Of a stretch of DNA of 64,000 nt, positions 1,794 to 61,600 are shown piece after piece. The translations under genes were made by a program, and so were the position numbers. The stretch lies in NCBI GenBank assembly GCA_009869945.1, contig WIXG01000202.1, positions 62,001-126,000 of the forward strand, in the 5' to 3' direction. Below the pieces are notes generated by a model. It worked only from the letters and a program-made list of their open reading frames with translations, was not told where the DNA came from and did not search any database. Each line of letters starts with the position of its first letter. The first letter of the stretch is position 1. The DNA comes from Mesaphorura yosii. Taxonomy: Eukaryota; Arthropoda; Collembola; Poduromorpha; Tullbergiidae.

Positions 1794-4700
1794 TCCCCGG
1801 AGAGCCGCAGAACGTGAATGCTCAGCCGGTCAACTCGACGACGATCTGCATCCGCTGGGAAACGCCGAACCAGAACGAGAAGCACGGCGTGATTCGAGGG
1901 TACCAACTCCACGTGCAGGAAGTGTCCGAGCTGACGGAGAATCTCCTCAACAACTTACCCATGCGCCATGATATTCTCGATGGGAATGCCCGCGAGTTCA
2001 ACGTCACCGACCTGCAGCCCGACACGGAGTACACCGTTCAGGTGGCAGCACTCACTCGCAAGGGCGATGGACTCCGTTCCAAGAAGGTCTCCGTCAAGAC
2101 GCCTGGCGGAGTTCCGAGTCGACCGGATCTGAAACTGAAAATTCACTCTTCCGAGGCCGGAATCACGATGGAGCTGGAGTGGACGCGCCCGCTGCAAACG
2201 TTTGGCGAGGTTCGAGGCTATCGGCTGAAGTACGGACCGAAAAATACGCCGCTGGAGGAAATTCTCATCGAAGGCTCGCAGATCAGCTCGCAAAAGATCC
2301 AGAAACTTGGTAAGGACGTTTTGCTTAGTTACGGAACTTCTACGCTAGAAATTTAAGCCCGGCCATTTCTTCTTTCAGATCGTGGCGTTGAGTATGAATT
2401 CAGAGTATCCGCGCGGAACCACATTGGCTACGGACAGGAAATTGTGCAATTCTATACAACCCCGGAAGGAGCGCCGACAGCTCCGCCAATGAACGTAAAC
2501 TATCGCTTCCAGACAACGGATGTCGTCGGCATCACATGGGACCCGCCACCACCTGAGAGCCGCAACGGGCAGATTCTAAAGTATCACGTGAGCTTCCAGC
2601 GACGGATGGGCGACGCCGTCGAGCGAAACGTGACCGTGCCGAAGGCCGTGTTTTGGAACCTGGAGGAGAACCAGGAGTATTTGGTCCAAGTCAGCGCGTC
2701 CACGAGCCAAGGGCGCGGCCCGGCGAGTGAAAAGTACATGATCAAGACCGAGAAGGAAATGACTCGCGCGCCGACGCACGTGCAGGCAATGGCCACGTCC
2801 GAGGCGACGGTCGAAGTCTGGTGGGAGGGCGTGCCTGGTCGAGGGCGGCTGAGCGGCTACCAAATCTTCTACACGACAACCGCTATCGAGGACCTGGACA
2901 CGTGGCAGAATACATCGGTGGGGATCACGACGTCGGCGGACCTGATCAATCTGGAGAAGCATTCCCAGTACACCGTCATCGTGGCGGCGCGGACCAAGAC
3001 GGGGTTGGGGAAGGTGTCCGAGAAGGTGATTGTCAAGCTGAAGCCTGAGGAGGTGCCCCTCCAGCTGACGGCGGAGGATCTGAGCACCCACAGCATGACG
3101 CTCAAGTGGGCGCGCCCGGTGCGGCTCAACCCGATCGAGTACCGCGTCTCCTACGACGCCGTGAAGGAGTTTAGCGACTCGGACGGAATGACACAAACGC
3201 AGTATTTCAAGCCTGTCGAGCGGAAAGTGAACCCAGACACGGAATTCCTGACCGTCGACGAACTCTCGCCCTTCACGACGTACAACGTCAACGTCACGAG
3301 CGTGCCCTCCGACCGTTCGTACCGCCCGCCAGCGAAAATCACCGTCACGACACACATGGCGGCTCCGCAACCGATGGTCAGGCCCGACGTGTGCTTCCAG
3401 TCGGGAAAAATGAACCTGTATCTGCCCAGGGCGTCGGAGGAGTACGGACCCATCTCGCATTATTATCTGGTCGTCGTTCCAGAGTCGAAGAAACTCGTCG
3501 GACGATTTCCAGATTACTTTATCATCGAGAACGTAAGATCACAACTTATAACCTACAATTGCATAACATCATCTTCTTGCCTGTTTGTATTTAATTACCA
3601 ATTCGTAATATTTTAGATGGCGGGCATTCCCGGCACGCCGACTCGCGTCGTGGCTTCGGGTGGGATGCAGTTCACTATCGACGAAGAAGAGGAAGACCTG
3701 CAGGACGGGCAATCGCCGCATCCGCACCCAGTCTTGCTGCCGTACATCGCTGCCCGGTTCCTGCCCCGCGCCATCCCACGGCAGTTCGCGCTCGGCGACG
3801 GGCTGAACCACAACGGATTTGACAATAAACCCTTGGAAAAGAACGTGCAGTACAGAATTTTTCTGCGGGCCGTCGTCGACACGCCACAGAAGCACCTGTA
3901 CACGTCGAGCCCCTTCTCGGACCCCATCTCGCTCAGCATGCCCGAGTCGAACTCCTGCGAGCCGCCGAGCCGACCTCCGAACGACCTCACCCACGGAATG
4001 CCGCCCGATGTCTCCTTCAGGCCCAATGACCCCGAGCCGGGCGTGCTCCTCGTCGTGGCGCCGGTCATCGCCCTTGTCTGCATGGCGTGTCTCTTCCTCC
4101 TCTGCTTCCTTTTCGTCCGACGTCGCCAGGTGATGCACAAGCACGTGGACCAGTCTGGTGTCCTCAAGCCACTGATGGCCGCGTCGGAAGGCCACGAGGG
4201 CATCATGCCGACGGGGTTCGTTACTTCCAGCTTCGGCATGCACGGAATGGGCCCCGACGGCATTTCCGGACTGCAAGACGGGCCGAGTGACCCCGTCGAG
4301 ATGCGGCGCCTCAACTACAAGTCCCCCGCCATGATGCTCCACCCGCCCATCCTTATCCCCGACCTCGCTGCCCACATCGAGCGCCTGAAAGCGAACGACA
4401 ACCACCTCTTTTCGCAGGAGTACGAAAGCATCGACCCCGGCCAGCAGTTTACGTGGGAAAGTTCAAATACGGAGATTAACAAACCAAAGAACAGATACGC
4501 CAATGTCGTCGGTAAGATACGAATTCACGGGTCAAAGTCAAAGCAACTGTCTAATACTCGCTTATTGCTTTTATGTACGATTTCAGCGTACGACCACTCA
4601 CGGGTCGTTCTGCAGCTGATTGACAACATCCCGGGCACGGATTACATCAACGCCAATTACTGTGATGGATATCGACGACAAAATGCGTACATCGCCACAC

Positions 4701-7497: not shown

Positions 7498-10440
7498 TCA
7501 CTGCTTGAGAGAAAGTGTCGTCGAAATTTTGCGCCGTCGGTCGTCTTCCGAGGCGCTCGCACTCGTCGTCGAAAGCAAATTCGACGATCGCGTGCCCTGT
7601 CGGGCCCCGCTCGCGCTCGTGTCGCCGATACCCATGCTCGACGTGGAGCCGTCCAGTCCAAACATTCGGCCCAGTCGGCCGCCTGCTCCTGCACGCAGGC
7701 GGTCGCGAAGCAGCCGCCAAATCTTGCGCTTAAAGTCGAAGGCGAAGAAGATAAAGGTGCCCTGAAGCCCGTTGATAATGACGAAGGGGTAGCGGAGCCA
7801 GTCGGTCTCGAGGAACTGCGAGGCAAAGCCGAGGATCCAGCCAAGGCCCATAATCAGCGCCATGTTGACATACAGCATCAGGCGCACCTTGTCGCGGTTT
7901 GTGGCGTGCGTCGGCGCAGACGCCTTCGACTTCCGGTCGACGCCGTTCGTGCCCATGGTCGTTGTTGTGACCGATGATCCGTCGACCGAGACCGAAACGG
8001 GCGTCTTTTTCGGCGCCTTGTTCTTGAAGACGCGGCTCGACTCCTTCTGCTGGGAGAAAATGGCGTTGGCGGTGCAGGAAAAGAGGACGATGTTGACGGC
8101 GACGACGAATGCGACGGGGACCGCGAAGAAGACGAAGAGCGAGACCCGTTGGGTGATCCAGCAGAGCCCGTTCTCGCCATAGGAGGGCCTGATGCTGGAC
8201 AGCAGGTCGTCTTCGTGGTCGCCCGCGCCTGCCCGTTCGGGCACGGCAAATTCCAATAGCACGGCCGTGAGGACAATGAGCCCCGGGGCGGTCCAGGCGT
8301 AGATGCTATATTTAATAAATTTCTGGCTGTCCGTGGAGTGGCTGCGACGGAGGAGCGAATTGCAGCTGAAGGTGCGCCACATGTCGAAACTCATGACGTT
8401 CATCCAGAAGAAGGCGGCGAGGCTGAAGTAGTGCATCGTCACGGCAGAGGTGGTGCAGAGCCCGGCCCATTTGCGGTGGGTGAAGAGGACGAGGAAGAGG
8501 AGCTGGAAGATGAACAGGCTCGCCGTGAGGCAGAGCAGGTTTCGCCCGGGAGGGTTGCGCAGTTTCGGGAGAAGGACGTACAACGCGATGTGGAACGCCG
8601 AGAAAATGACCGAGAGCCCGACGGAGATCAGGGAGACGTAATTCAGGGCGGGCGAGAACGTTAACTTGAAGGCGCGGTGGAGGTGTTTGGCGCAAACGGA
8701 AATGGTCGTCTCGTTCACGTACTCGTATTCGGACTCGAGCAGAATCTGCGTCCGTGTGGTGTTGTTCGCGTTGGCGTAGGCGCCGTCATTCGAATTTGAA
8801 TTTGAATCTGAGTCGTGGGGAAGAATCACGGAGATGGCGCCTGGTGGATCGTCCAGCAATCTGAACTCGTTTTCATGAAACAGAATTCTGTATTTTGTGC
8901 ATTCCGGGTCCTCGTCTTCCTTGTGTCCACCGCCACGCCCCTCGTCGTCTTCCGTCCGGTTTCGGGCCGCGCCCTCGTCACCATCTCCACCGCCTACGGA
9001 GCCGCCCGCAGTCATGTTGGGCCGCGGGCCGATGATTTCGATGAGCGGCGGCTTGCCCGAGCCCGCCCGCACACATTCGCCCCGCTGGAGGACGTAGCCC
9101 GACTTGCAGATCATTGGCCCACACTTCTGGCGGATGTAGTCCCAAATCTCGTCTTCGCCGCACAGCATCTCGTACCCCACGTATTTATTGCCGCCCAGCC
9201 CGAAATCGAAGAGGAAGTTGAGGCCGGCTCCCGGGAGGATGGCACCCGCTTCGCCTGGTCGCACTTTAAAGAAGGTCGTCGCGATGGTCGGCCGTCGGCA
9301 GGACAGCGGTAGGGGCGGCGGCGAAGACGTGGGCATGCCACTGGCGGGGTCTTCGGCGACCACGCCCATACCCTCTTTATCCTTGATTTTCTCATCCGCT
9401 GCCTCTTGACAGAGGGCACAATGTGGGTTTTTGTAGATTGTGCCTTTTACCCCATGCATGACGTACTGAGCGTACCTCGAACACATTTTCGCCAGCTTGC
9501 GGGCCTCCGCCGCCGCCAAGGGCTCGCTCGGTGTGGTCTCGGGGCAGGTCGCGATCGCCTTTTCTGAGCAGAACCGCACATTAGGAATCGTGTTTTGTAT
9601 TTCGAACTCGCGGAGTTCGGCGATTTTCAGGACGCACTTTGTTTCTTCGTCTTCGTCATCCGTCCGCCAAAGGCGCTCGCCTGGGATGTACCGCGCGGCC
9701 GCCATGAATTCGGCGCGCTCGGGCGGCGTGAATTCGACGTTGCAGGCAAGTTGTAGCGTCCACGGCACGATGTGTGAGTTTTTCTCATTGTGGCAGCGAG
9801 CGCAGTAAATGTTTTTGTACAGCGTGCCGCCACCGCCAATCTCGGAGCCTTCGGTGGCCGTCTTGTTGCTGTAGACCGGCAGATCGACGAGGTACGTGTG
9901 ATTCTGCGGGGGCACATTTCGTCCTTCGCACAGTCGCCTCGTGATTTCGTCGCGATTCGTCTCCGGACAGCCGCTGATCATCAGCGCGTAGGTCGTCTGC
10001 AAAGTGCATAAAACCGCGCCGAACCGTGCCATTAATTAAATTCGATTAAAGCAATAAATTTAATAGATTCATTGGAGTTTTCGGACAAGTCAGCTTACCG
10101 ACGTGTTTTGCGCCTCCAGCGCATGGCACCCCCACAGATTCTTGCCTTCGGGCAGCGTCCGGTTTTCGATGAGTGACCAGCAGCAGTCGCCGTAGCGGAG
10201 ACACTGTGGTAAGTCGCAGCGGCAGATTTCGGGCGACATCACGATGCTCTGGATCGTCGTCGCGTTCTCGGGGCAAACGTCGCGGAGCCCGCAGTCGTGG
10301 CGCTTGTCGGCGGCGGTCACTTCATTATTCCAAGGCGGAGGCGAAGGTCCGTTCTCACTAAAGGCCGCCTGATCTTGACATTCGACAATGACATTGACTG
10401 ATAAAAACAGCAATACTCCAAAAACTGCGTGAAGATTCAT
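7498..10440 (-). CDS. Methuselah-like class B GPCR with cysteine-rich somatomedin-B-like N-terminus
   Basis: Seven-transmembrane receptor of the secretin/adhesion superfamily, Methuselah-type branch; the ligand cannot be predicted. Two exons: 10440-10099 (ATG at 10440, signal peptide MNLHAVFGVLLFLSV) and 9996-7498, joined in phase 0 (GTAAGC donor, TTTGCAG acceptor), giving 946 residues. An open frame also runs upstream of 10440 but begins with TTG, and the signal peptide favours the ATG at 10440. The first exon has a somatomedin-B-like cluster (CRCDLPQC, GDCCW). The ectodomain then has two similar modules, LYKNIYCARC and IYKNPHCALC, followed by more cysteines and a long acidic Ser/Gly/Asn linker. 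Seven hydrophobic helices lie at about 8670-7720. Helix 3 precedes MNVMSFDMWRTF, a motif typical of Mth-like and adhesion receptors, and helix 6/7 includes LGWILGFASQF. There is no GAIN/GPS autocleavage site. The cytoplasmic tail is short and Ser-rich. Confidence 0.88.
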
Positions 10441-44900: not shown

Positions 44901-47900
44901 AGCGCCTCGGCGTGCCGTACAACTCCCGAAAGTACCGCTGGCGGGTTACGGCCGTCGGAGCGGCCGGTATGCTGTCCCGCACCCACTCACCCCTCTTCTA
45001 CATGACCCTAGACGGTTTCAAAGAGCCCGGCCCACCCTCAAGCATCTTTGTGGCGCGGGAAATTGTAAACGACGCGTCAGTCGACGTGCTCATCGGATGG
45101 GAACCTCCGCCAGGTCCGTTCACGGCGTGTGTTGCAGCGTGCTGTGTTCCTCGAAACACGAGCGTGGTCTTTATAAATTTGATCTTGAACACTGATTTTG
45201 GTCTCGTCACTTCTTCAGAGCGTCCGTGCGCCTACAAAATCAACCTTTACCCGATGGACACGATGGAGCACTACCGAACACATCGGCTTACAGTAAGTAA
45301 AAGTAAAGTTGTCCATTGTTCTGAGTCCTTGTCAAGTCGAAGTGGAGTTCCTGGAAACTTAGGTTTCGGCTTCGGCTTTGAGCCGAGGCAGATGTCCGAG
45401 TTTCCAGAATCAAAGGCGCAAGGGAAGCTCTTTGGGTCTTTGATAGTTAATAGGCTTGTAGGAGGATTAAATTTTCTGTCTGTGGGCTGTAGCTTCTTTC
45501 ATCTCGTCCACTGCATTCTCGTTTTCGTAATTCCAGGAGCCACTGGGCGTGAACTTCCACATGTTTCGCGGTCTCAAGTTTGGAAGCAAGTATGATGTGA
45601 CGATGACCTCGCGGGGAGATAATTGGCGCTACGAAAGCACGCTCAAGTCGCAAAACTTCACAACGATCAGTTGCCTGGAAGCCCATGAACACCGCTTTGA
45701 CAAATGTGGTGAGTATTTCGGCTCGGGTAACTCGGGCTCGGGTTACTTTGATCTGTTTTGCGACCTTGCGCTAATTAGCGTGTGTAATTCGATCCTTTGA
45801 TCACATTTTCCTTGTTGTCGTTCTCTTTGTCATTGACACGCCACGCCGCTGCAGACCCGCCGCCACCGAGAAACATCTCGCACCAGCTGCAGCTGGAGGA
45901 GAGGCAGCGCCTGGAATCGGACGAGCAGCAGCCGTCGAAGAGCAGCAGCAGCAACAGCAAGCTGGACGTGAAGCTGAGCTGGCTCCCTCCGCCGTACACA
46001 TCGCCCTCGAATCCGATCCTTGCCTACACTGTCAGCCTTGGCCCGCCACTCAATGAAACGGCGACCGCTTCCAACCCTAAAAACATCCTCTCCGCTGCTT
46101 TCTTCCGCATGAACCGCAACCACAACGTTCCCGGGGTAAGCAAAGCATCAAAGCACTAAGCAGAAAGAAGATTAATTTGTTCATTTGGGGCTTAATTCCT
46201 GTTTTTACCCGGAGAGACAGGCGGCTTAAGGCTCATATGAGCTGGATAGAATGTTAGAATTTAACCGCTCCGAAGAGAAAACAGACTCTTTGTACTATTT
46301 ACATACGTGGGCGAGCAAAATTTGTACAACTTGTTCTTTGATTTTGCCAACTCCATTTTCCATTTGCTATTTGCAGAACACAACGCACACTTACCTGAGC
46401 GAACTCCTGCCCAACACGCAGTACGTAGTCAAACTGACGGCGACCTCCGCCAAGGGAAAGTCGGCGCCTGTGCAGTATCACATGAGCACAAAATTGGGTA
46501 AGTAAACAGTAAATGGGCCCAAGCCTTGCTCAAGTCTGTGTAATCATCAATCACAATCTAACCGCACGAACACCTGAGAACAATGCAGACAATGGCAATG
46601 GCGCTACCGGACGTTTTCTTTTCAGCTGTCGAGAAGGAGGAGGTCGTCATGCCACAGACGAGCAACTGGCTGTACTTGTCCGTCTCAATCTCGTGCGTAA
46701 TCCTCATCCTCTTTGGCTGTCACTTTCTCCGAGTGTTTGCGCGAAAGAGGAAAGTCAAGAAAGCACGAAACCAGTATTTCCAGGTGAGCGACGCGGCACG
46801 CACCAGCACTTCTTTTGTTGTCCGTCCGTCCTCAGCTCCATCCGAGCTTTGAGTTTTGAATCCTGCTTTTGTCCCCGCAGACAATCGAGGATCGGGACGC
46901 TATTTCTGCAGACTGGTCGATCGTTCCCCTGCACGACGAATGCTACTCCCTCAGCGAGTTTTCAAAGGAGAAATGGGAGATTTCGTACGACAAGATCGTC
47001 ATGGGTGATGTTATTGGCCAGGGCGCCTTTGGCGTCGTGAGGCGGGCAGCGATGGCGCGCAAGAACTTTCTCGCGCTCGCCAAAAAGCTGCCGGGCGTCG
47101 GTTGTGGCGGGGACGTCGTGGGCGGGGCGTACGAGGCGACGGCGATGGAGACGGTCGCCGTCAAGATGCTCAAAGTCTCCGCCACGCGTGACGACCGGGA
47201 CCAGCTCATCAAGGAGATTCTGACGATGCAGAACCTCGGCTCGCACGCGCAGATTGTCAGCCTCCTTGGCGCCTGTACGAAAGGTCGGAGTCTCTGCCTC
47301 GTCATGGAATTCTGTCCAGGAGGCGATCTCCTCACTTTCCTGCGAAAGGTAGGCAGGCTTCATTTCTTCCTGACTTTCATTTGAAATCGACCTCCGAGAC
47401 TTCCAACTCTGCCTTTTCATGCCTTCTTGCCATTTCTTGCAGGTTCGTGCCAAATACTGGCCCACGCTGGGCATGGTCGACTCCGCCAGGTCACGCACAC
47501 ACCCGCCACTGCCGCAAACGAGCAACAGCGCGAGGACGTCCGTGAGCAGCACGCGAACGGCACAGAAGAGCATCGACAGCTCGCCGATTAATTACGCCGA
47601 TCTCGAAGTGCTCTCAGACGAGTATTCGTCCTCGCCCATGGGCGATAAGCACGAATGTAAGCCAGATTTTTCATTTCACGTGCGCCTGGAAAAGAAAACT
47701 GCCCGCATTTGTGGAGGTTCACTTCATTTGAAATTTGCGAGGCAGAAGCGAAAAATCACAAATTGTGAATTTATTCAAATCGAGCCAAGCCGAGCTGAGC
47801 TGAGCGGTGATTGACATTTGACAATAAAACAGATACTACTGGAAATCTGGAAATGACGTGCAGACAAAAGATTGGGGCGTATTTTCACTCGTAAATAAGC

Positions 47901-50900
47901 ACGGAATTAGAATTCTAGAAACCAAACACCGGATCAAAATTCAAAACTTGTTATTGTTTTTGGTTTTATGCCGTATCCCTTTTGCTTTTACCTTCGCAGA
48001 TGGAAACGCGCCTCGACCTGCCACAACCACGACGATGACGATGACGATGACATCGGCCTCCGCCGCGCCCGGCGTCGATTTCGAGGATGAAGACTGCCGG
48101 CCGATCGACGAGAAAGACGTGCTCTGCTACGCGCGGCAGATTGCGATGGGGATGGAGTACCTCGAGAAGAACCACATCGTCCACCGCGATCTGGCGTGCC
48201 GGAACGTCCTCCTCCTCGGCGACTACAAGCAGGTGAAGCTGTCCGACTTTGGGCTGAGTCGAGACGTGTACACGTTCCACGTGTATCACCAAAAGTCCAA
48301 CGGGAAACTGCCCATCAAGTGGATGTCCATTGAATCAATCTTCACACACGTCTTCACAAGCAAGTCGGACGTGTAAGTCAAAATTCCCACACATGCCACG
48401 CGCACACACTTTTCCAATTCTCGGTTCGCGAATGAATGGGCAGGCTCGCTCGAGTTGGCAAAATAATTCCGGGAATGAAAAGTTAAAAAAGCATAAAACG
48501 ATAACAGAACAGAGAAAACAAAGGCTGGGAAGTTGAGATCTTGATCTTGGGAAAAAACTTTTGGGACTGTACAATTGCCATTGCCATTGAATTAATTTGG
48601 AGACCTCCCACGTCAGAGTCAAAGTCAACGTCAAAAGTTATGCTGGCGGGTGGGTGACGGAAATTGCGTCGCGGCACGGAATTTGAGTAATTCCGAGTAA
48701 CAAGAAGTACTTTTGTCCAATTTAGAAGGATGAAAGTCGATGTCAAACTCTTGAGTTTCAATAATTTAATGTGACAATGGCTTGCGCACTTTTAACTTCT
48801 GTCGCGTGGAGTAGAAATTCCTTGCCTGTAGAGGTGATGTGTGCTTTTGTTAATGGAGTCTGAATGAGCTGGCATCTCCACTCTCGCAGCCGCAGCATTT
48901 TGCATTCATCTCGTCTTCTTTATAAGTGTTTCACTCCAATCTCGATTTTCGACTTTACTGCATTGTCTATTGCCTATTGTGTGTCACCGTTCTTAACTCA
49001 AGTGTCCTCGGGTCTCAATTTGTCAGATGCAAAGATGCGGATGCTGCCACGAGTAGCATGAAATTCGTATTTGAAATGCGAACGCCATACGCGAAATTCC
49101 ACTCTGGAAAATGGGGAACTTTCGATTACAGCTGAAAAGCCGAAAACTCGCTACTCACATTTTATGACAATGGCTGGCAGCAGCGGAGTGGATCGATAAA
49201 ATGAACGCAGTGATTGATTATTTCAATTATTTTAATTATTGCATTCTTCTGCCTCTCTTCTTACTGTTCTGAGTCTTGCTCATAATTAATATGATGGCAC
49301 CGCCACCGCATGCGCGTGGCACGTGCAGCGTGTAGCTTAGAGTTACTTTCATTAATTAATCCTTACCTGAGCCTATTGCCTTTGCTTCTCCTGCAGCTGG
49401 AGCTATGGAATTCTGCTCTGGGAGCTGGTCACACTCGGAGGAACGCCGTACCCCGGCCTCGGTAACACGGAGCTCTTTCAAGTGCTCAAATCTGGCTACC
49501 GCATGGAACGACCTGACAACTGCTCCGAGGAGCTGTAAGTGAATGCAAATATTTTCGTACGCTGTTACTTTCGGAAAGATTTCGACCAGGCAAAAATAAA
49601 CCAAACAGAATGAAAAAGAAAGAAAAGATTACAAGTTCATTTGCTGCTGCTGTGGCTGCGGTTTTTTTTACGATTTCTGTTTCCCAACCGGATTTAATTA
49701 AAGTGCTTTCCCAGCATACTTTCACTCTGCAGCTGTGACGTACGAATTGTTTACATTTGTTTCGATGCCCCACACGAAATGAGATATTTTGCGAATGTTC
49801 CGGACAAAGAATGAAGTATGAGAAATATCTTTCCAAATTCCAGCTTTACAGATTGTGTAATAGTTTTTTGTACGCTAATCGCCAATCATTCATGTACAGG
49901 GTGGCAAATAATTAGTGACCCCCACCCCGCAGCCAATTCTGGTAAATTTAGGCACAAGTGCCATATATTAATCGAAAGCTTATGTCCAAGCGGATTTAGA
50001 TCCAAAGTTTCAGATCAGTTGGACCACAGGTGCCGAAGTTATAAGCATTTTAGTGCAAGAAACATTAACGCGATTTGTTTATTTTTAGGAAAAAATCGTT
50101 TTGCTTCTTAACAAAAAGAAAAAATTATTAACAAAGCATTGGCAAAAATTGATTTCTTTAAGTGATCATAAAATCGACAAGGATAGTCCAGTCAATCTGA
50201 AAATTTGCACACGTATGCTGCTTGACACGGGCTATCCAACGATATGATTCACATGTACCTACCTACTCCAGATTTGGCTGTGGGGTGGGGGTCACTAATT
50301 ATTTGTCACCCTGTAGCTAATTATATTAACTACGTAATTTTACATGCAAAAATGGCCAGCCTGTTTTGTAGCGACTCTCAATGGAATGGAAAATTCCGTG
50401 ACAGGTTCTAAAAATAGCGGATGTGCACTTTATTAGGCTTCCAGCATGATCCCCGTCATCATCATAAAATCGACTAAACGACACAAAGCGTCATGGCTTA
50501 TTATGATGAGCAAACGTGACAAAAGACTGGAACATGAAACTTGGAATGGAGAGGAAATTCCGACATCAATCTTCATGTTTTAGCATTTCCATCCATGCAT
50601 GCCAGGATGCGGGTGACAGACGCATGCAGTTTAGTTTCCAGCGACAAACCGCAGAAACAGAAAGCCTTCGTGACGTATAACGCAGTTCTGCGGCTGAATC
50701 TGAAATTCCAGCTTCAAGCACGTGCGAGCCAAACACGAAGTAGAAGTACAAGCACGAACTTTCTCTATTACGTTAAGCTATGGTGATCTTTCTTTTATTA
50801 CGCTCCATCGCGTCGGCTCCGTATGCGTCTTTCTCCTTTTATTACTCTGCTCCAGTGACACTGATCAATGGAGCGTGCAAATTGGTCGGCCTTCCACCGT

Positions 50901-51842
50901 ATTCAGACAGAGTATTTTAATGGCGTTGTTATCGTGTGATCTGCTTTCTACCGTTTCAGATACGCTCTGATGAAAAAGTGCTGGCGGACTGCTCCCGCGT
51001 CCCGACCAAATTTCACGGAGCTGCGTCGCTACGTCGAGACGATGATGGATGCCGCCGAGCCGAGTCTCTACCTTTCACTCATGGCTGACTTGCCTACGGA
51101 TTACTTTCACATCAACAGGTAGCGTAGCTCGTAACAATTCCGTGAAAATTTGAACTTTACTTTTATATTATGTTTGTAACATTTATTGTGCAGAGAGGAT
51201 CTTCTTCACAGCCATGCGCGATTGGATGATGAGGGCGTTTCCGGTTCGAAGGACAGCGTGAGCGCCAGCAATTCGACCTCGAACCTGAAGCGGTCCCTCC
51301 AGCAACAGCAGCAGTTTAGCGAAAGCCAAGGTGAAAGTCGTAAGCACGCTAAAACAGCCGCTGGGTTTGGCGCGGACGTTGCTGAGAAAAGAGGTGGAAA
51401 AACAAAAACAAGCTCCACCGCAGGAAGAGAAAGTCAAAGCCAACCGAAACCGGATCCTGAAGCGACGTCGTATTTGCATGTTGACGGTGAAAGCATTGCA
51501 AATATAAGTGAAATCAGTGAAAGCATGAGCAGCAGTTGTTTACCGTCTCTGAAGAAAGGAGAAGAAAAAGGAAAGACGACTGCAGTGGGGAGCCCGCGGG
51601 CACGAGAAAAGAAAGCGGTGAACGAAGAAGACGAAGACGATGCTCAGCAGAGTTTGATAAAATCGAGAGATGCGGCAAGGCCAAAACCGCCGCCGCCGAG
51701 CCTGCAGCTGGAAAACAACATCGACAAAAATTGCAGCAACGGCAATGGCTTTCGGAGGCCAGGCTCCGGCGCTTGCAGGTCTCTGAAGGAGGCGGCCAAC
51801 TCCGTGATCATCATCGAGAACAAAACTTACGACTTGATTTAA
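41934..51842 (+). CDS. Receptor tyrosine kinase with FN3-like ectodomain and split kinase, Torso-like
   Basis: Single-pass receptor kinase, 1369 residues. Sixteen exons: 41934-42260, 42353-42478, 43149-43205, 43356-43919, 44885-45113, 45219-45292, 45537-45708, 45855-46135, 46377-46497, 46626-46783, 46881-47348, 47443-47656, 48000-48372, 49397-49534, 50960-51118, 51194-51842; phases all close. A basic start precedes a signal peptide ([18 protein letters not shown]). Exons 3-4 hold a cysteine cluster, and exons 4-9 hold FN3-like repeats. The membrane span is in exon 10 (about residues 664-686). The kinase has GQGAFG (about 749-754), AVKML (Lys about 798), a roughly 100-residue low-complexity insert from exons 12-13, HRDLACRN (Asp about 994), [22 protein letters not shown] and LGGTPYP, so all catalytic residues are present. 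An extra Gly-rich stretch separates the glycine loop from the Lys. The 216-residue tail ends in a Tyr motif (NKTYDLI). The activation segment and FN3 ectodomain fit Torso, the PTTH receptor, best. A PDGFR/VEGFR-related kinase remains possible. Confidence 0.88.
49895..50315. mobile_element. Tc1/mariner-type MITE with TA target duplication in intron 14
   Basis: A 417-bp element (49897-50313) is bounded by near-perfect inverted repeats. The left end begins CAGGGTGGCAAATAATTAGT and continues GACCCCCACCCC; the right end reads the same on the other strand with one change (GGTGACAAAT). The similarity extends over about 45 bp through CAGCCAA and TCTGG. It is flanked by TA on both sides (49895-49896, 50314-50315), the target duplication of Tc1/mariner elements. 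There is no transposase frame, so it is non-autonomous. It sits in the 1.4-kb intron 14 of the Torso-like gene and does not touch the splice sites. Confidence 0.85.
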
Positions 51843-52345: not shown

Positions 52346-52351
52346 TTTATT
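52346..52351 (-). terminator. Poly(A) signal of the astacin-like/DM9 gene
   Basis: Minus-strand AATAAA, 26 nt after the TGA stop codon of the gene at 52377-53880, predicts a very short 3' UTR. Confidence 0.55.
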
Positions 52352-52376: not shown

Positions 52377-53880
52377 TCAGCAAGTCAGCAGTTGGAAATT
52401 TGAGCACTTGACCGCCTTCCCGCCAAAAGGCACGTACAGCGCGCCGACACGTGCCTGAAAGGAGCCTGACGTGATCGAGTCCGCGCCGGCCACTTTGCAC
52501 TTGCCGATGTACACCGGCTCCCGGTCGCCGGTCCGGCCACCGAGGATGGCGAAGGGGAGAATCGCGTTTATGGCACCCCACGTAAAATTGTGGCCGCCTG
52601 GGCTGGTGAGGACCTCGAAGTTCCGCCCGTAAATGTACTCCTTGCCCCCGTCCGCGACCCAGCAATTCGTATGGCTCTCCGTCGTCTTCATTTTTCCGAC
52701 AAGGAGCGCCCCAGCGGGCCCGTGGTACACCCGACACACGTACAGCGGGCGCTGATCGATGTCGTGGCCCGACTCGACTGGGTTGAAGTGGCTGGACTCG
52801 AAGGAGTGCGGCGAAGCGAGGAGGCGGTGGATGTCCATGAAGCGGTACGAGTGGCAGGCGGGACAGTCGTACAGGGCGTTCAGCTTTTCGAGGTCCAGCA
52901 CGCTCAACGCCCCGGAACCGCCGGCGGTGGCGTCGTCGTCGCTGGAGCCGAGCCTGGCCGACGGGTGCTTGTGGGGAGTGAAACATTCGCGTGTGACAAA
53001 CATGTGACTCGCGTAGTCGAAAACGATGCCTAGCGCGGCGGCGGAGTGCTCGTGGGAGATGGCGACGGCCTTGCTCCTGCTCGCCAAGGTCGCGTTGGAG
53101 TCCATGCCTGCGCCGTCGCCGGCATCCCTGAACTCATCTTCGTATTTGTCCAGTGCGGCAATGCATTCTGTCCTCAGCGGATTGTAGCGGACGTACTTTT
53201 CGCGGTCGACCCGTGTCTCTTCGTAGGCGAGGCCGAGGACGAGCCCCAGCGCCCGCTGAATGTATCCGTTCGTCAGGCAGTCGAGCCCCAGCTGAATTTC
53301 TTGCCCCTGCCCGCGACCGAAGCGGGCGCGCCCTGGTCGAAGGCCGATTTGGGAGGTGACACATATTTCGTCGTTGCGAGTAAATCGTACCCAAAACCGG
53401 TCACTGTCGCCAGGCGCCTTTTCCCTGAACCGGATGCAGGTTTTCTCGTGAATCAGCCTGAACGCCTGCTTGATGAGCAGCTCGGCGTTGGCGAAGAGCG
53501 GGTCAATCACGAACGGCACAGTGCGGTTCGGCCAGAGTTGCGGGCCGTCGTCTAGAAGACGAAAAGCCAAGTTTAGAATGGAAAAATTAAATTAAATTAG
53601 CAGAACTGAAGAACTCCAATTTCAAAAATTCAATTTCCTCGTTTCCCGGGAATTGAAACTAACCGTCCGGTAAATAAAGTTCACAAAGTTCATTCAAACG
53701 GCGAATTCGAAACTTACCTTCATAGCTGCCGTCGCCCAGGGCGCTCCTTCCTGCACGGGCACTGCTGCTGCCGGATTGCCCGGAGCCATGAATGATGAGG
53801 ACGATTCCGAGAATCAGGAGTGGGACGATGAGGACAGCGAAAATCCTCCAGCCGAGTCGTGCCGCTGAATTCCAGTCCAT
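52377..53880 (-). CDS. Type II membrane protein: inactive astacin-like domain fused to DM9 repeats
   Basis: Exons 53880-53718 and 53551-52377 (TGA) join in phase 1 to give 445 residues. The frame is open upstream of 53880 but only to a TTG, so the ATG before DWNSAARLGWRIF is chosen. Residues about 10-33 form a membrane span (IFAVLIVPLLILGIVLII) with a short basic inside, so the rest should face outward. Residues about 57-300 align with M12A astacin: LWPNRTVPFVID, EKTCIRF, the stretch LGLAYEETRVDREKYV, FDYASHMF and LSVLDLEKLNALYDCP. Where active astacins have HExxHxxGxxHE this protein has RALGLVLGLAYE: all three zinc-binding His and the catalytic Glu are gone, and the Met-turn Tyr is also replaced. 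Residues about 325-445 are a DM9/DUF3421 module (GGKEYIYGRNFEVL, LGGRTGDREPVYIGK, ALYVPFGGKAVKCSNF), a fold known from arthropod and mollusc lectin-like proteins. Function unknown; a cell-surface binding protein is the simplest inference. Confidence 0.88.
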
Positions 53881-55619: not shown

Positions 55620-58600
55620 TTAGAGGTTCCACGAGAAGAGGTGATGTTTGACGAGCATGTCTTTCACGTCCGTTTTCAACTCCGACTTTTCCTTCTTCAC
55701 CGTTGGCTTGAGCTCCCACTCCAGACTCAGGCTGAAGGAAAACTGGGCCAGGACGCGAAGTTCGCACTTTAGTCCAATAAAGCCCGGGCTATTGAGGAAA
55801 CTCCATGGATGGTACCTGGAAATGGAAACAAAAACGACAAACTGACAATTACAGCACCGTTGGAATTTTCCAAATGGCGAGAGTTTTTGATTTGCACTTG
55901 CCATTTGTTGAGTACTTCCGCGGAGGAGCAGAAGATTTCGATCCACAGGTGGAGAACCTGCTCGTTGAGCCCGAGGCAGAGCAGCGAGCGGAATTTGACA
56001 TCCATCTGCACTTTCTCGTGGGAGCGGTTGACTACTTCTACGCAGCGGTACAGCAGCTGCGGAAATTCAGATCAGATTTTCAATAAATCACGGCTCAGTT
56101 AATTTGCACCGTATTTCGCTCCTAACCTCTTCTGGACTGAGGACTTTCCCGTCTTCGTCCAGCCGGTACGTTTTGCAGAGGACCAGACGAGAGTACACCG
56201 ACCGGAAGTCGCGCTCGATTTCCTTCCGCGCCACTTCCTCGATAAACAGCCACGGATGGACGGGAATCAGGCTCGACGTGCGCTTCATGCCGTGCTCAAA
56301 GATCCGCTTGAGGGCGGGGCAGAGGACGCCACGGGCGAGGTCGGCGATGCCCTCCGTCACAGAGTCGTCCCCGGCAGGGGAGTACTGCTTCGAGCGCTCG
56401 TCGAGGACGGCCACCAGCCGCGAGGGAAACCAACCTCTGAAAAAAGGAAATATACCACGCACGCACGAATGAAAAATTCACGTTCCAGGAATAAAAACCT
56501 CACATTCAAAGTAAAAAATGCGAATATCTCGCCTTCCTTTTCTGCTTTGCATTTTACGTCACGACAAGTACAAATACAGAAATCACAAATCTGAGGATCT
56601 CCTGATCGAATTAACTCGCATGAATGAATACGAGTGAATGCATCGAACCAAAACACCAGACGCTTTCACTAAAAGACTGAAAGCCAAGGTACTTTCACCT
56701 TTCACAAAAATAGAAAGCATTCACTTTCTCCCAGAATACAAAATTCCCACTCAGCATTTGGCATTAACGGGGTACAACTAAAGATCCGGAATTTATGAAG
56801 GCGTGTATAACTGACAAGGTAACGCATTTGGCTTGGTACCGGTTTTCGATAACCGACCAGCACATCATGATCAGCATCCCAAAAGATGTCTATGTGCAAA
56901 TTTTTAGGTTGTCAATTTCACTACAGACCGCCCAGTACGGATTTGAAGTTGCAAATGTAACAAATGGAGCCAAACGTTACAAAATTTTTTTTTAAATTAT
57001 TTCAATCGTCTTCTCTCTAAGTACGGTAAAATTCACAAAATTGTGTCTTCAATTACTTTGCAAATTTCTGCGTTTTGTTTTTGTCAAAATATTCGAGAAG
57101 TTTCATCATAATATCCAATGCGAACGTTTTATTGCCAATTGTGTGCTCCTCTCATTATTGTGACTGACTTCGACTGTCTTGTGTCTCGTCCAGAGTACAT
57201 CACAATAATTGAACTCACAGAACTCGTATGAATCAAAGTCTAGGCACTCCTCTTCGATTGCTCTCTCGTCGAAATACGCTTCTTTCAGCTCCTGCAGTCT
57301 CTGCACAGATTCCCGATGACTATCAGTTGGGTATATTGGTTCGACTTTATACTTTACCCTTAACGTGTCAAGCATCAGCTGCAGCACGGTTAGATAGTCA
57401 GCCATTGTTGAGCACAGACTTCGTTAAACTTAACATTTGACTTAAGCATTTGATAACTTCCACACAAACTCGAATTTGCGGTTCACGGTAGTAGACAGCG
57501 AGTTGAAATTGAAATGATTTAGTGTAGAGTTCGTTTCTGTTACCGTTTCGTTCAACACAAAGAATGAGAATAAACGAGTGCAAGCAAGCCACAGACGCTC
57601 TGTTCAGATACAGTAATGCGCTTGAGTGCGAGAAGCTACACAACAGTTTCAAGTGTGCACTACGCGGTGAAATTGATAACCTAAAAATTTGCACATCTTT
57701 TGGGGTGCTGATCATGATGTGATGGTCAGTTTTCGAAAACCCGATACTAAGCCAAATGCGTTACCTTGTCAGTTTGGGTGAATAATTTGAATGCAACCAA
57801 ATATGCCATCTAAAAGTGCTTGAAGAGAGCTTCAAAGTGAGGTATCGCTTTGTGGTGTTCGGGTCTAACTACGGCAGTAATGACCCGTTGAAGCTGGGTC
57901 CCTTAAAATGGCACAGAACGACATTTTTAAGGAGGAGCCGCGTCCGACTGAATGAAGCAGCCTTTTCTCTTTGCTGCCTCCCCGGTTCTCTACGATGTCC
58001 AAGCAATCGAAAAATTACCCGGTTGGATTTATTTCGTGCCTACCGTGTCGTAAACAGTAAACTTCCCAATTCCCTCTCCGTCCAGCTAGAGGAGCTAATT
58101 TTGTCGGGTCAGTATCTTTGGGGTAACTGCAGGATACGTGGATGGAATAGGGCCGTGTATGGGCTCAAATGCTCCTGGCATTCATATGAATCTAAAGACA
58201 CCCAATTTGACCCAATTCTTTGTCTCTTGTACAAGACATGGAGCACAATGAGGCTGCCGCCCCATCAGGGGTACTTCAGACTCCTCTGGCCGTACAAATT
58301 TCTTAGTGCGCCCAGTGGGGTCGTGCATACACTTAAAATGCTCCCTAGCTTCAACAGATTCGAAATCTGGTACAAAATTTGGTGTAGCACTACGTCCTAG
58401 GGCTTTCGAGCTATGAAGGAAGGTCAGGTAAAATGAGTGTGTCCGAAACAATTCTTAGGTGGGGCTTCTTTCGACGTGCCTATAGAAGTCCTGAAATTGA
58501 CTAAAATTGTACCGAGTCCATTTGATGGGACTAAACTATGTGAGGATTAAGAAAAAAATGTCGATGTTGCCCAAAAGTGACATCACATGCGAAAATTTTG

Positions 58601-61600
58601 AAGGAGATAAAATTCCGGATCTTTAGGTGTCACTTGTTACACAGAATTTTTGCGTGCTAAATTTGTCACTGACCTTAGCCCGTTGAGTTCTCCAATCCAG
58701 CAGTGCTCGTCCTTCGAGTTGAGAATGATGAGGATGTCACTTTTGCGAAATCCAAGCTCGTCGTCGTCTCGTCGCTCAAAATCTGCAAGTTTGCAATTTG
58801 CAATCTGACTGTAAATTTAAAAGCAAAATGAGTCAAGAGCTCACCGAAAAGCGCTTTGGCCCGTCGAATTCCGTTTGAGATTCCCTGCGCGAACTTTTCA
58901 TGATCCCGCTCGTGACTTTCGATGGAAAAGTCTGGCTCCAGACTGGCTTTCATGAATTTCGCATCGTTTGCGATGAAATGTCGGCCGATTTGCAGAATTG
59001 CTTCGTGTAAGTCGACCATCAGCTCTAAAATTGTGCAAAAATTAGAAATCACTGCAAATTTTGCAAAAATGTGTGGCCCACGCATGAAAATTGCTTGCCT
59101 GTCTGTCGAACGTTTTTATTCTTCACATCATTTGCGTCCTGCCCAAAAATCGTTTTCAAAATCCCCGGGTTTGTCTTCTCAGCTTTTTTATTGGTCCGTT
59201 TCTTGACACGTCGAGACGCCGCGGACGAGAGCGTCGAGGAGCCGTCAGTGACGACCTGCGGCGCGAGGCGTTTTCGTTCCTGTTCGATAGAATTCGCGTT
59301 CAGGTCCCCAAAGTGGTCGAGGTCGAGTGCGTCGAAGGAGACGAGGGTGGAGGGCAGGTCAGACAGGAAATTGAAGATCTCCGCTGAGTTTGCGAGCTGC
59401 AGCAGCTCTGTGTCCTTGTATTTGATGAGTGCCAGTGTGACTTTGAAGAGGACGACGTCGCCCTCCGCGAAGAAGAGGTCCCAGATGCGGAGGAGGAGCT
59501 TGACGTGGATGACAGAGGCGAAGATGGAGAGGAACCAGTTCAGGGCCACGAGGGCGAGGTCGATGTCATGTTCCTTCAGGAGGTCGGCGAGTTGAGGAAA
59601 GTAGACGGAGACGAGGTACGAGAGCACGGCGGCGTCGAGGCGGATGCCGACAAAGTCAGAGAGGTACCACGTCGGAGGGAGGAGGTCCTCGATGATGGAA
59701 CAAATCAGCCAGAAGGTGTCTTCTTCCTCCAGAAAGAGGAGCAGGTGCGCCACGATCGTGCCCATCCCCTGGCAGTAGCCAATGTCGGGGTACAGCCAAG
59801 CCAGGGCGCGGAGGACTCGGCGCAGCCGCGGAATTCCGGGGGCGTCGAATCCGCTGAAGCAGACGTTCCCCGGAAGGATCCGCGTCAGGTCCTTCTCGAT
59901 GAGCTTCGCGAAGGAGAAATACTCGTTGGCCGCCGACTCCTTCACGACCTTCCAGTACGGCACGTTCAGCGCGTGCGTGTTCGCCTTCTTCTCCAGCGCG
60001 CTGCTCAGTCGCAGCCAGATTTGTGGGCGAAGTGAGTGCGGAATCCCACCGCCGCCGGCGCGGGTCATCATTTCCCACAGTTTCTGGGTCACGGGGATCC
60101 GGTTTGGAATCGAGTCCCATGAAAGCTCCTGCACTTCTTCGCGGCTGTGCGAAAATTCCAGGTATGCCAGCCACTGCAGCCTGATATATAAAAAGGTACG
60201 GGAATCATAATTAAAATGTGACGGCGGCATAATCGAAATTTAATTTCTACTGCAAGAAAACACGAAAACGCGCAAAATATTCGCAGCTCGCCCACAGATT
60301 TGCTTGAATGCCATTAGGCTGGATTTATTCTTCGCAAAATTGGCCGCGACACAAATACGAAGGTACGAATGACGAAGGATGTCGGGGAAATCGACGGAAG
60401 CGAATGAGATCTTAATTTTTCTTAATACAATTACAGTTAATTCGAAATCGAAGCATATCAAAAGATAGCAAAGCTGCCTGAACCCTGAACAGCTGGAAAA
60501 GAACAATATCAAAAGTTGCTGGAATCCGGCAGCATTCTTAATGTAGAATCGATCAGTCTATCGTTGGAGTTGTGGGATACGTCGGGTATTCCGGGTATCT
60601 TGCATTCATGTCTCGCAGGTAGACTTTTCTGACTGGCGAGGCGGAGCCGGAGCCCGTCGGCGAGCTGACAAGGTCCTGATTGTATGAGCAGGCAACGGCC
60701 AGAAGTAAACCTGCAAAAGGTAAAATCGGAAATTAAATCAGTGAGAAATTGAAGGAGGAGACACTAAAATTCGAAAAGCATTAAGCAACCGTCTTCTGAA
60801 AAGTCCAGCGCCGAGATTCCAGCCGGATAAGCCGAGTACGAGTTTAGACAGGCCTTTTTGGGCCAATTCCAGAGACGGAGCATTCTGTCGGAGCCTCCAG
60901 TCACAAAATTGGCGGTACGAGGTTGAAATCTGGCGTGTCAGATACAAAAATCGCGATTAACAATTAATTAAACTATTTCGGCGTCCACCTGCCTGAAAAG
61001 CAATCGCAGTCGCTTACCGAATTGCGTTGACCGGAAAGTCGAGTTCGTGCGAGCGATGAGCTCGAAATATGAACGTTTCTGTTTGCGCCTGTTGAACGCT
61101 TTCGATAGAAACTCGACCTTCACAGCTGCCCAAAACGTAATGCTACAAGAGCACGAAAGCAGGTAAACTGATAAGTTGACTAAAAAGGACAGACTTTCCT
61201 ACTGTTTGTGGTACGCCCGCCTTACCTGCTTATCGGGACTAATGGCCAAGCAGCGTGGGTGGTAAGTCGTGAAATTTGACGTGCGTTCGCTCAGGGGGTT
61301 GAGCATATTCCTTAGGTCCCAAATCGCGATGTGATTCTCAGCGAGCGAGGCGACGACCAATTCGTCGACGACTTCCGTCTGGAAAACTTGCTCCAGCTGC
61401 GGATACTTTCCCACGACGGTCAGTGTTCGGGGGTCAAAAGTTTTTATGTACGTGTCCCAGCTTCCACTGACGACCTGGCTTGTGGATCGACTGAAGCCCA
61501 TGCAGCTCGTGGCGAGGACGTGGCGCTCGTCACCGAAGGAACTCACTGAAATCGGCAAAATGCAATTTATCAATCAATGTGATAACCGATAATGCGAATT

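Follow-up and report, generated by a model that had tools for sequence, protein, structure and literature searches.

How does a gene come to encode an astacin-like domain devoid of its catalytic residues, joined to a DM9 region and most likely anchored in the membrane, and what could such a protein do? The question is raised by a locus of the collembolan Mesaphorura yosii that lies within a stretch of 64,000 nucleotides of contig WIXG01000202.1 (positions 62,001 to 126,000), which we refer to as the window. A preliminary description had delimited the locus to 52377..53880, and these limits turned out to be exact, with the ATG at 53880 and the stop codon ending at 52377.

A two-exon gene with an astacin-like domain and a DM9 region

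The gene structure is a sequence-based prediction, a two-exon model with the following elements (positions are those of the window).

53880-52377, minus strand: window gene, from the ATG to the end of the stop codon, two exons, 445 aa
53718..53880, minus strand: exon 1, with start codon, N-terminal hydrophobic segment and a short Ser/Gly-rich linker, spliced in frame
53552..53717, minus strand: intron of 166 bp, phase 1, with a GTAAGT donor at 53717 and a TTCTAG acceptor
52377..53551, minus strand: exon 2, holding the entire astacin-like domain and the DM9 region in a single open frame
52346..52351, minus strand: AATAAA polyadenylation-type signal, 25 nt past the stop of the window gene

The intact frame of 1.3 kb described earlier is open and coding, but it is split: the coding sequence of 1,338 nt is distributed over two exons, of which the single open exon 2 contributes 1,175 nt without interruption. 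The GC content is 0.60 and 0.62 in the exons versus 0.343 in the intron, and reaches 0.61/0.47/0.80 at the three codon positions of exon 2. The codon-position pattern of exon 2 together with the low intron GC is a coding signature. With a first-order Markov model of exon 2, 389 stop-free codons were obtained in 13 of 20,000 random sequences, and in combination with two Pfam matches this leaves chance as no serious alternative. By its sequence, the predicted window gene is well supported as a real gene.

Two protein domains could be assigned within exon 2.

52863..53534, minus strand: astacin-like (M12A-like) domain, about aa 61-284, from PF01400 and phmmer matches to solved astacins
52407..52763, minus strand: DM9 region, aa 318-436 by Pfam, two repeats judged against CGL1

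The Astacin profile PF01400 matches the protein in two stretches, the best of which covers aa 61-178 (E 5.2e-20; 72 bits at a cut-off of 22.5). A phmmer search with the astacin part found 17 distinct sequences of solved astacins at E <= 0.01, the best being 8a28 (6.2e-10). The DM9 profile PF11901 is matched almost over its whole length (positions 1-114 of 115; E 7.8e-17; 61.7 bits at a cut-off of 26.2), and beyond Astacin and DM9 no further Pfam domain was found in the protein at E up to 1. The fusion of astacin and DM9 that had been proposed is thus borne out by matches to both families inside one exon. We considered whether the two domains might belong to separate transcripts and rejected this, because both share the uninterrupted exon 2 and separate transcripts would be impossible unless an unseen intron cuts it; only the N-terminal segment of the protein relies on a splice. 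An AlphaFold prediction of exon 2 alone, made from the single sequence without an alignment, was too low in confidence for use (pLDDT 31.5, pTM 0.22).

A prokaryotic contaminant was rejected as the source of the locus, given the intron and a genome of 93 Mb (1,127 contigs) that contains cuticle genes. The chitin_bind_4 cuticle family, typical of arthropods, has 66 matches in this genome; an own-genome search for insect odorant receptors gave no match, a search that is unable to prove absence.

Several other genes lie in the window. On the minus strand, 7498-10035 encodes a secretin-family receptor of 845 aa in a single frame (PF00002, E 5e-20), with a long N-terminal part that is Cys-rich by eye. 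A tyrosine-kinase exon is located on the plus strand at 46860-47384 (PF07714, E 1e-20 for 46863-47384), and by eye 47828-48376 on the plus strand appears to belong with it. For the frame 51180-51842 (plus strand), which has no Pfam match, inspection by eye suggests that it could form the last part of the tyrosine-kinase gene; it ends roughly 0.5 kb away from the window gene's 3' end, which lies on the opposite strand. Further on, a RabGAP-TBC frame occupies 59049-60239 on the minus strand (E 4e-51), and downstream of it 56088-56477 (minus strand) matches RUN weakly (16 bits against a cut-off of 22); the two perhaps form one TBC-RUN gene.

The lost zinc site and the maintained frame

Two short segments of the astacin-like domain bear on its catalytic state.

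53220..53255, minus strand: degenerate zinc-site motif, RALGLVLGLAYE where HExxHxxGxxHE is expected
52995..53021, minus strand: Met-turn region FDYASHMFV, from the alignment with own-genome astacins

In RALGLVLGLAYE the first His is replaced by Arg, the catalytic Glu by Ala, the second His by Leu and the third His by Tyr. The Met-turn reads SHMFV in place of SxMHY, so that the Met is kept, the His is gone and the Tyr, a further zinc ligand in astacins, is replaced by Val, although the C-terminal alignment taken alone is weak (0.1 bits). The absence of an active site claimed in the preliminary description is thereby confirmed for all three His and the catalytic Glu, and extends to the Met-turn Tyr. 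A site relocated to another part of the gene was considered and rejected: all six frames of 52377-53880 are free of HExxH. The astacin domain of the window protein is near certain, from its residues, to be catalytically dead.

The loss does not extend to the structural residues. The domain keeps the motif Gly, the Glu following the third ligand position and the Met-turn Met, and Cys 93, 118, 146 and 284 align with the four disulfide Cys of astacins, which we take to pair into two disulfides. Compared with the M12A family (astacin, BMP1/tolloid, meprin), the window protein shares the start and end of the domain, the four Cys at disulfide positions, the Met-turn Met, the Glu that follows ligand position 3 and the DRxxYV segment. 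Unlike these enzymes, it lacks the zinc ligands, the catalytic Glu and the Tyr ligand; its domain is preceded at short distance by a hydrophobic N-terminal segment, and a pro-segment is not recognisable.

Catalytic residues are not immune to change elsewhere in this genome. We found at least 37 Astacin matches, grouped into at least 25 loci, and 22 of these 25 have a motif readable in one exon; left out of the motif survey were two C196 loci, in which an intron lies inside the motif, and one C37 fragment. His, Glu, His and His are retained at 19 of the 22 loci; two of these differ at other motif positions, with Cys in place of Gly at C456 and Thr in place of the last Glu at C205b. Catalytic residues are missing at the remaining three: the window gene has lost all four, C527 4223-4738 carries Asn instead of Glu, and C84 has Gln at the positions of both the Glu and the second His. 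Partial loss, affecting one or two of these residues, thus recurs in the genome, while total loss occurs once among the 22 loci. The Asn-bearing sequence, HNFIHVIGFAHE, is the middle one of three tandem astacin matches at C527:3077-5740, and C84:158432-159027 is a further astacin with a lost site, HQLIQILGMNHE.

An open frame with an emptied active site could also be an early stage of decay. We therefore let the present exon 2 evolve without constraint in a substitution-only simulation, with 3,000 runs at each of seven divergences (0.05-1.2 substitutions per site). Not one of 21,000 neutral runs (0 of 3,000 per divergence) changed all four catalytic-site codons without introducing a stop; as the simulation started from the present sequence and not from an ancestor with His and Glu, this result is a proxy. 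At 0.3 substitutions per site the mean number of stops was 7.2, and a single run of 3,000 stayed stop-free. These numbers speak against long neutral decay, and to that extent the earlier statement that the gene is maintained and not decaying holds. At 0.05, 636 of 3,000 runs were stop-free, so a recent loss of constraint is compatible with the data. That the gene is in early decay, or is an assembly artefact, nevertheless appears very improbable: this reading can draw on the single genome available and on those stop-free runs at low divergence, but it has to accommodate 445 codons without a stop, clean splice sites, the GC of 0.80 at third positions and the polyadenylation-type signal, besides the failure of every neutral run to alter the four catalytic-site codons while remaining stop-free. 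With the astacin fold kept, the catalytic set lost and the gene maintained, the window protein is, as judged from its sequence, an inactive astacin homologue.

Dead-site metzincins have been described before. The inactive ADAMs (M12B pseudopeptidases: ADAM2, 18, 32 and others) resemble the window protein in being dead-site metzincins and membrane-anchored, the ADAM membrane anchor being C-terminal. They differ in belonging to another subfamily and in carrying disintegrin and Cys-rich domains instead of DM9. The available part of a review on inactive metallopeptidases gives their motifs as QLLSLSMGITYD for ADAM2, QLLGLNVGLTYD for ADAM18 and QMLALSLGISYD for ADAM32 (PMC11266112); as in the window protein, ligand 2 is replaced by Leu and ligand 3 by Tyr in all three. 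The review further states that inactive ADAMs typically retain the Met-turn (PMC11266112). This Leu/Tyr combination is found in three of the nine inactive M12 sequences tabulated there (PMC11266112). By analogy, Leu and Tyr may be a preferred replacement at ligands 2 and 3 of an emptied metzincin zinc site, although the cases are few. In the same available part, the main groups of inactive metallopeptidases are M12 (ADAMs) and M14, and astacins appear only among the metzincins, with none listed as inactive (PMC11266112).

The sister gene and the origin of the fusion

DM9 is represented in the genome by at least 14 matches, grouped into at least 12 loci. An in-frame astacin match is present at two of the 12, the window gene and one other.

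C456:31230-29895 (stop not counted): sister astacin-DM9 gene, three-exon model, 391 aa

The C456 protein has an apparent signal peptide, an intact His, Glu, His and His in HELGHTLCMGHE, and both Pfam domains. Its domain order and its CHxYRF junction are those of the window protein; it differs in having an apparent signal peptide, intact catalytic residues and the charged residues at each of the two DM9 sites. Within C456:30905-29895, the Cys found for the motif Gly in HELGHTLCMGHE is accompanied by a Glu for the Met-turn Met (YDYVSIEHY).

Self-matches aside, the two genes are reciprocal best matches: with the 391-aa protein as query, identity is 37% across its residues 177-391 (E 1.7e-25), and the search in the other direction gives E 1.5e-26. 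The alignment crosses the astacin-DM9 junction LYxCxxCHxYRF, of which CHxYRF is common to both, and identity is about 35% over the aligned codons (113 of 327). Given the intact His, Glu, His and His of C456, the reciprocal match and the shared junction, the fusion is probably older than the loss of catalysis. A lectin-tailed protease would then probably have been duplicated, and one copy would have gained an anchor and lost catalysis. The preliminary description had presented the combination of anchor, dead astacin and DM9 as undescribed. The astacin-DM9 part of it is not unique to the window protein, as C456 also has it.

The case for a common origin of the two genes is made by their like architecture, the common junction and the best-match relation in both directions, since the astacin tree gives no support. 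In this tree, built from 21 of the 25 own-genome loci with the motif columns excluded, the fork that holds the window gene and C456 stays open (48/83, 7 rows), and both are long branches, so that a false join is possible; moreover, each of the two astacin domains has its highest pairwise identity with a different row of the tree (C734, C196a). Two independent astacin-DM9 fusions thus keep a small residual probability. Among prokaryotic contigs, 56 stretches fitted the pattern of relatives of the window gene and C456 and none was confirmed; among viral contigs the figures were eight and none, and tblastn of exon 2 against phages gave no match at E 1e-5. These prokaryotic and viral searches carry no information on other arthropods.

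DM9 lectins such as oyster CGL1/CgDM9CP-1, Anopheles PRS1 and the natterins have two DM9 repeats like the window protein, and unlike it they are without a protease domain. Fusion partners of DM9 described in the available part of one study are ETX/MTX2 and farnesoic acid O-methyltransferase (PMC5712788), and an association of DM9 with RING is described for Drosophila in the accessible part of another (PMC2902509). In the genome analysed here, a 317-aa frame on C656, ending near 4500, combines a RING finger with DM9; between the two lies a zinc-finger match that stays below cut-off. In the open-access literature, an astacin-DM9 fusion with a dead site and an anchor was not met, a search on inactive astacins gave nothing, and the sole DM9 passage found together with astacin, in the accessible part of its source, concerns a peritrophic matrix protein and no fusion. 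As this covers the open-access literature only, other arthropods may well have the architecture without its having been published. Both pseudo-metzincins and fusions with DM9 are known kinds, and the window protein consists of ordinary parts in an unusual combination.

Probable topology, possible sugar binding and function

The place where the protein acts depends on its N-terminus.

53788..53844, minus strand: predicted signal-anchor segment IFAVLIVPLLILGIVLIIH, aa 13-31, from hydropathy

The mean Kyte-Doolittle hydropathy of aa 13-31 is 3.05 over 19 residues, whereas the N-terminus of C456 reaches 2.24 in its best 19-residue stretch. Two Arg precede the segment, and three N-glycosylation sequons (aa 63, 207 and 376) follow it, which suit an extracellular protein; a pro-segment between the hydrophobic stretch and the astacin domain could not be recognised in the sequence. 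Hydropathy, the two Arg and the three sequons together make a type II signal anchor the most likely reading, in line with the membrane anchor postulated earlier. If the segment were instead a cleaved signal peptide, the product would be a secreted pseudoprotease-lectin. The sister protein looks secreted by its sequence and a Ser/Gly-rich stretch follows the hydrophobic core, but this core of about 18 residues is very hydrophobic and longer than that of usual signal peptides, and we regard secretion as unlikely.

What the protein could bind is suggested by its DM9 region. Oyster DM9 proteins are reported to bind mannose in the accessible part of the CGL1 study (PMC4932603), and are described as microbial recognition receptors in the available passages of another (PMC5712788). 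According to the same part of the CGL1 study, site A contacts mannose through the side chains of Asp22, Glu59 and Lys43 plus a main-chain contact, site B through Lys114 and Glu130 plus a main-chain contact, and site A is the stronger binder (PMC4932603). When aligned to CGL1 (5id8, phmmer), the window DM9 has kept Asp22, Lys43 and Glu59 as Asp, Lys and Glu, a comparison of side chains only, while at site B Lys114 is replaced by Ser and Glu130 by Ala. The site-A Asp/Lys/Glu set of CGL1 is hence also present in the window DM9, and C456, aligned via the window protein, has Asp, Lys and Glu at site A and Lys and Glu at site B. Searched directly with phmmer, the window DM9 matches CGL1 weakly (E 0.057); a profile of four own-genome DM9 regions matches CGL1 at E 1.9e-24.

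Domain order, catalytic loss with structural residues kept, the sister gene, the site-A side chains and the open frame can be read from the sequence itself. From these we infer, with moderate confidence, a membrane-bound recognition or decoy protein in which a dead astacin fold and DM9, derived from a duplicated astacin-DM9 protease, are combined. The ancestor would have been a secreted astacin-DM9 protease like C456, in which DM9 probably directed the protease to glycans, and the window copy would have arisen by duplication. In this copy a hydrophobic anchor would have replaced the signal peptide and pro-region, and the metal site would have been lost with the fold retained, so that the protein most likely works by binding. 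Its DM9 would hold mannose-type glycans via site A, the sole site with the full set of side chains, and the pseudo-astacin domain might offer a second, protein-binding surface. A binding role as such is likely.

It is also conceivable, though unlikely, that the window protein regulates its presumably active sister, competing at the cell surface with C456 for the same glycans, substrates or inhibitors. The two are reciprocal best matches of the same architecture, C456 retains His, Glu, His and His as well as the charged residues of both DM9 sites, and the available part of the review on inactive metallopeptidases describes, as a theme, pseudoenzymes acting as regulators of their active relatives (PMC11266112). 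However, at only about 35% identity shared ligands are not assured, the window copy has lost DM9 site B, and C456, whose activity is itself only putative, is without the Met-turn Met. Slightly less probable still is that DM9 alone is functional and the pseudo-astacin serves as a passive spacer, keeping the lectin at a distance from the membrane. The retained site-A side chains would fit, as would the freedom of useless catalytic residues to drift; the four Cys, the motif Gly, the Glu and the Met-turn Met would then be kept without obvious need, though fold stability could explain them. The recognition or decoy protein is therefore the reading that we prefer.

A more specific proposal, which we put forward tentatively and consider improbable as it stands, is that the two genes form an enzyme/decoy pair, in which the secreted, lectin-guided C456 acts on mannose-bearing targets and the anchored dead sister holds the same targets. 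With a presumably active and a dead copy in one genome, the change from a protease to a recognition protein can be asked about directly. If the proposal is true, the dead sister would limit or localise the C456 protease at the cell surface, and the pair would be the astacin counterpart of the inactive ADAMs, with the DM9 lectin as the common address tag.
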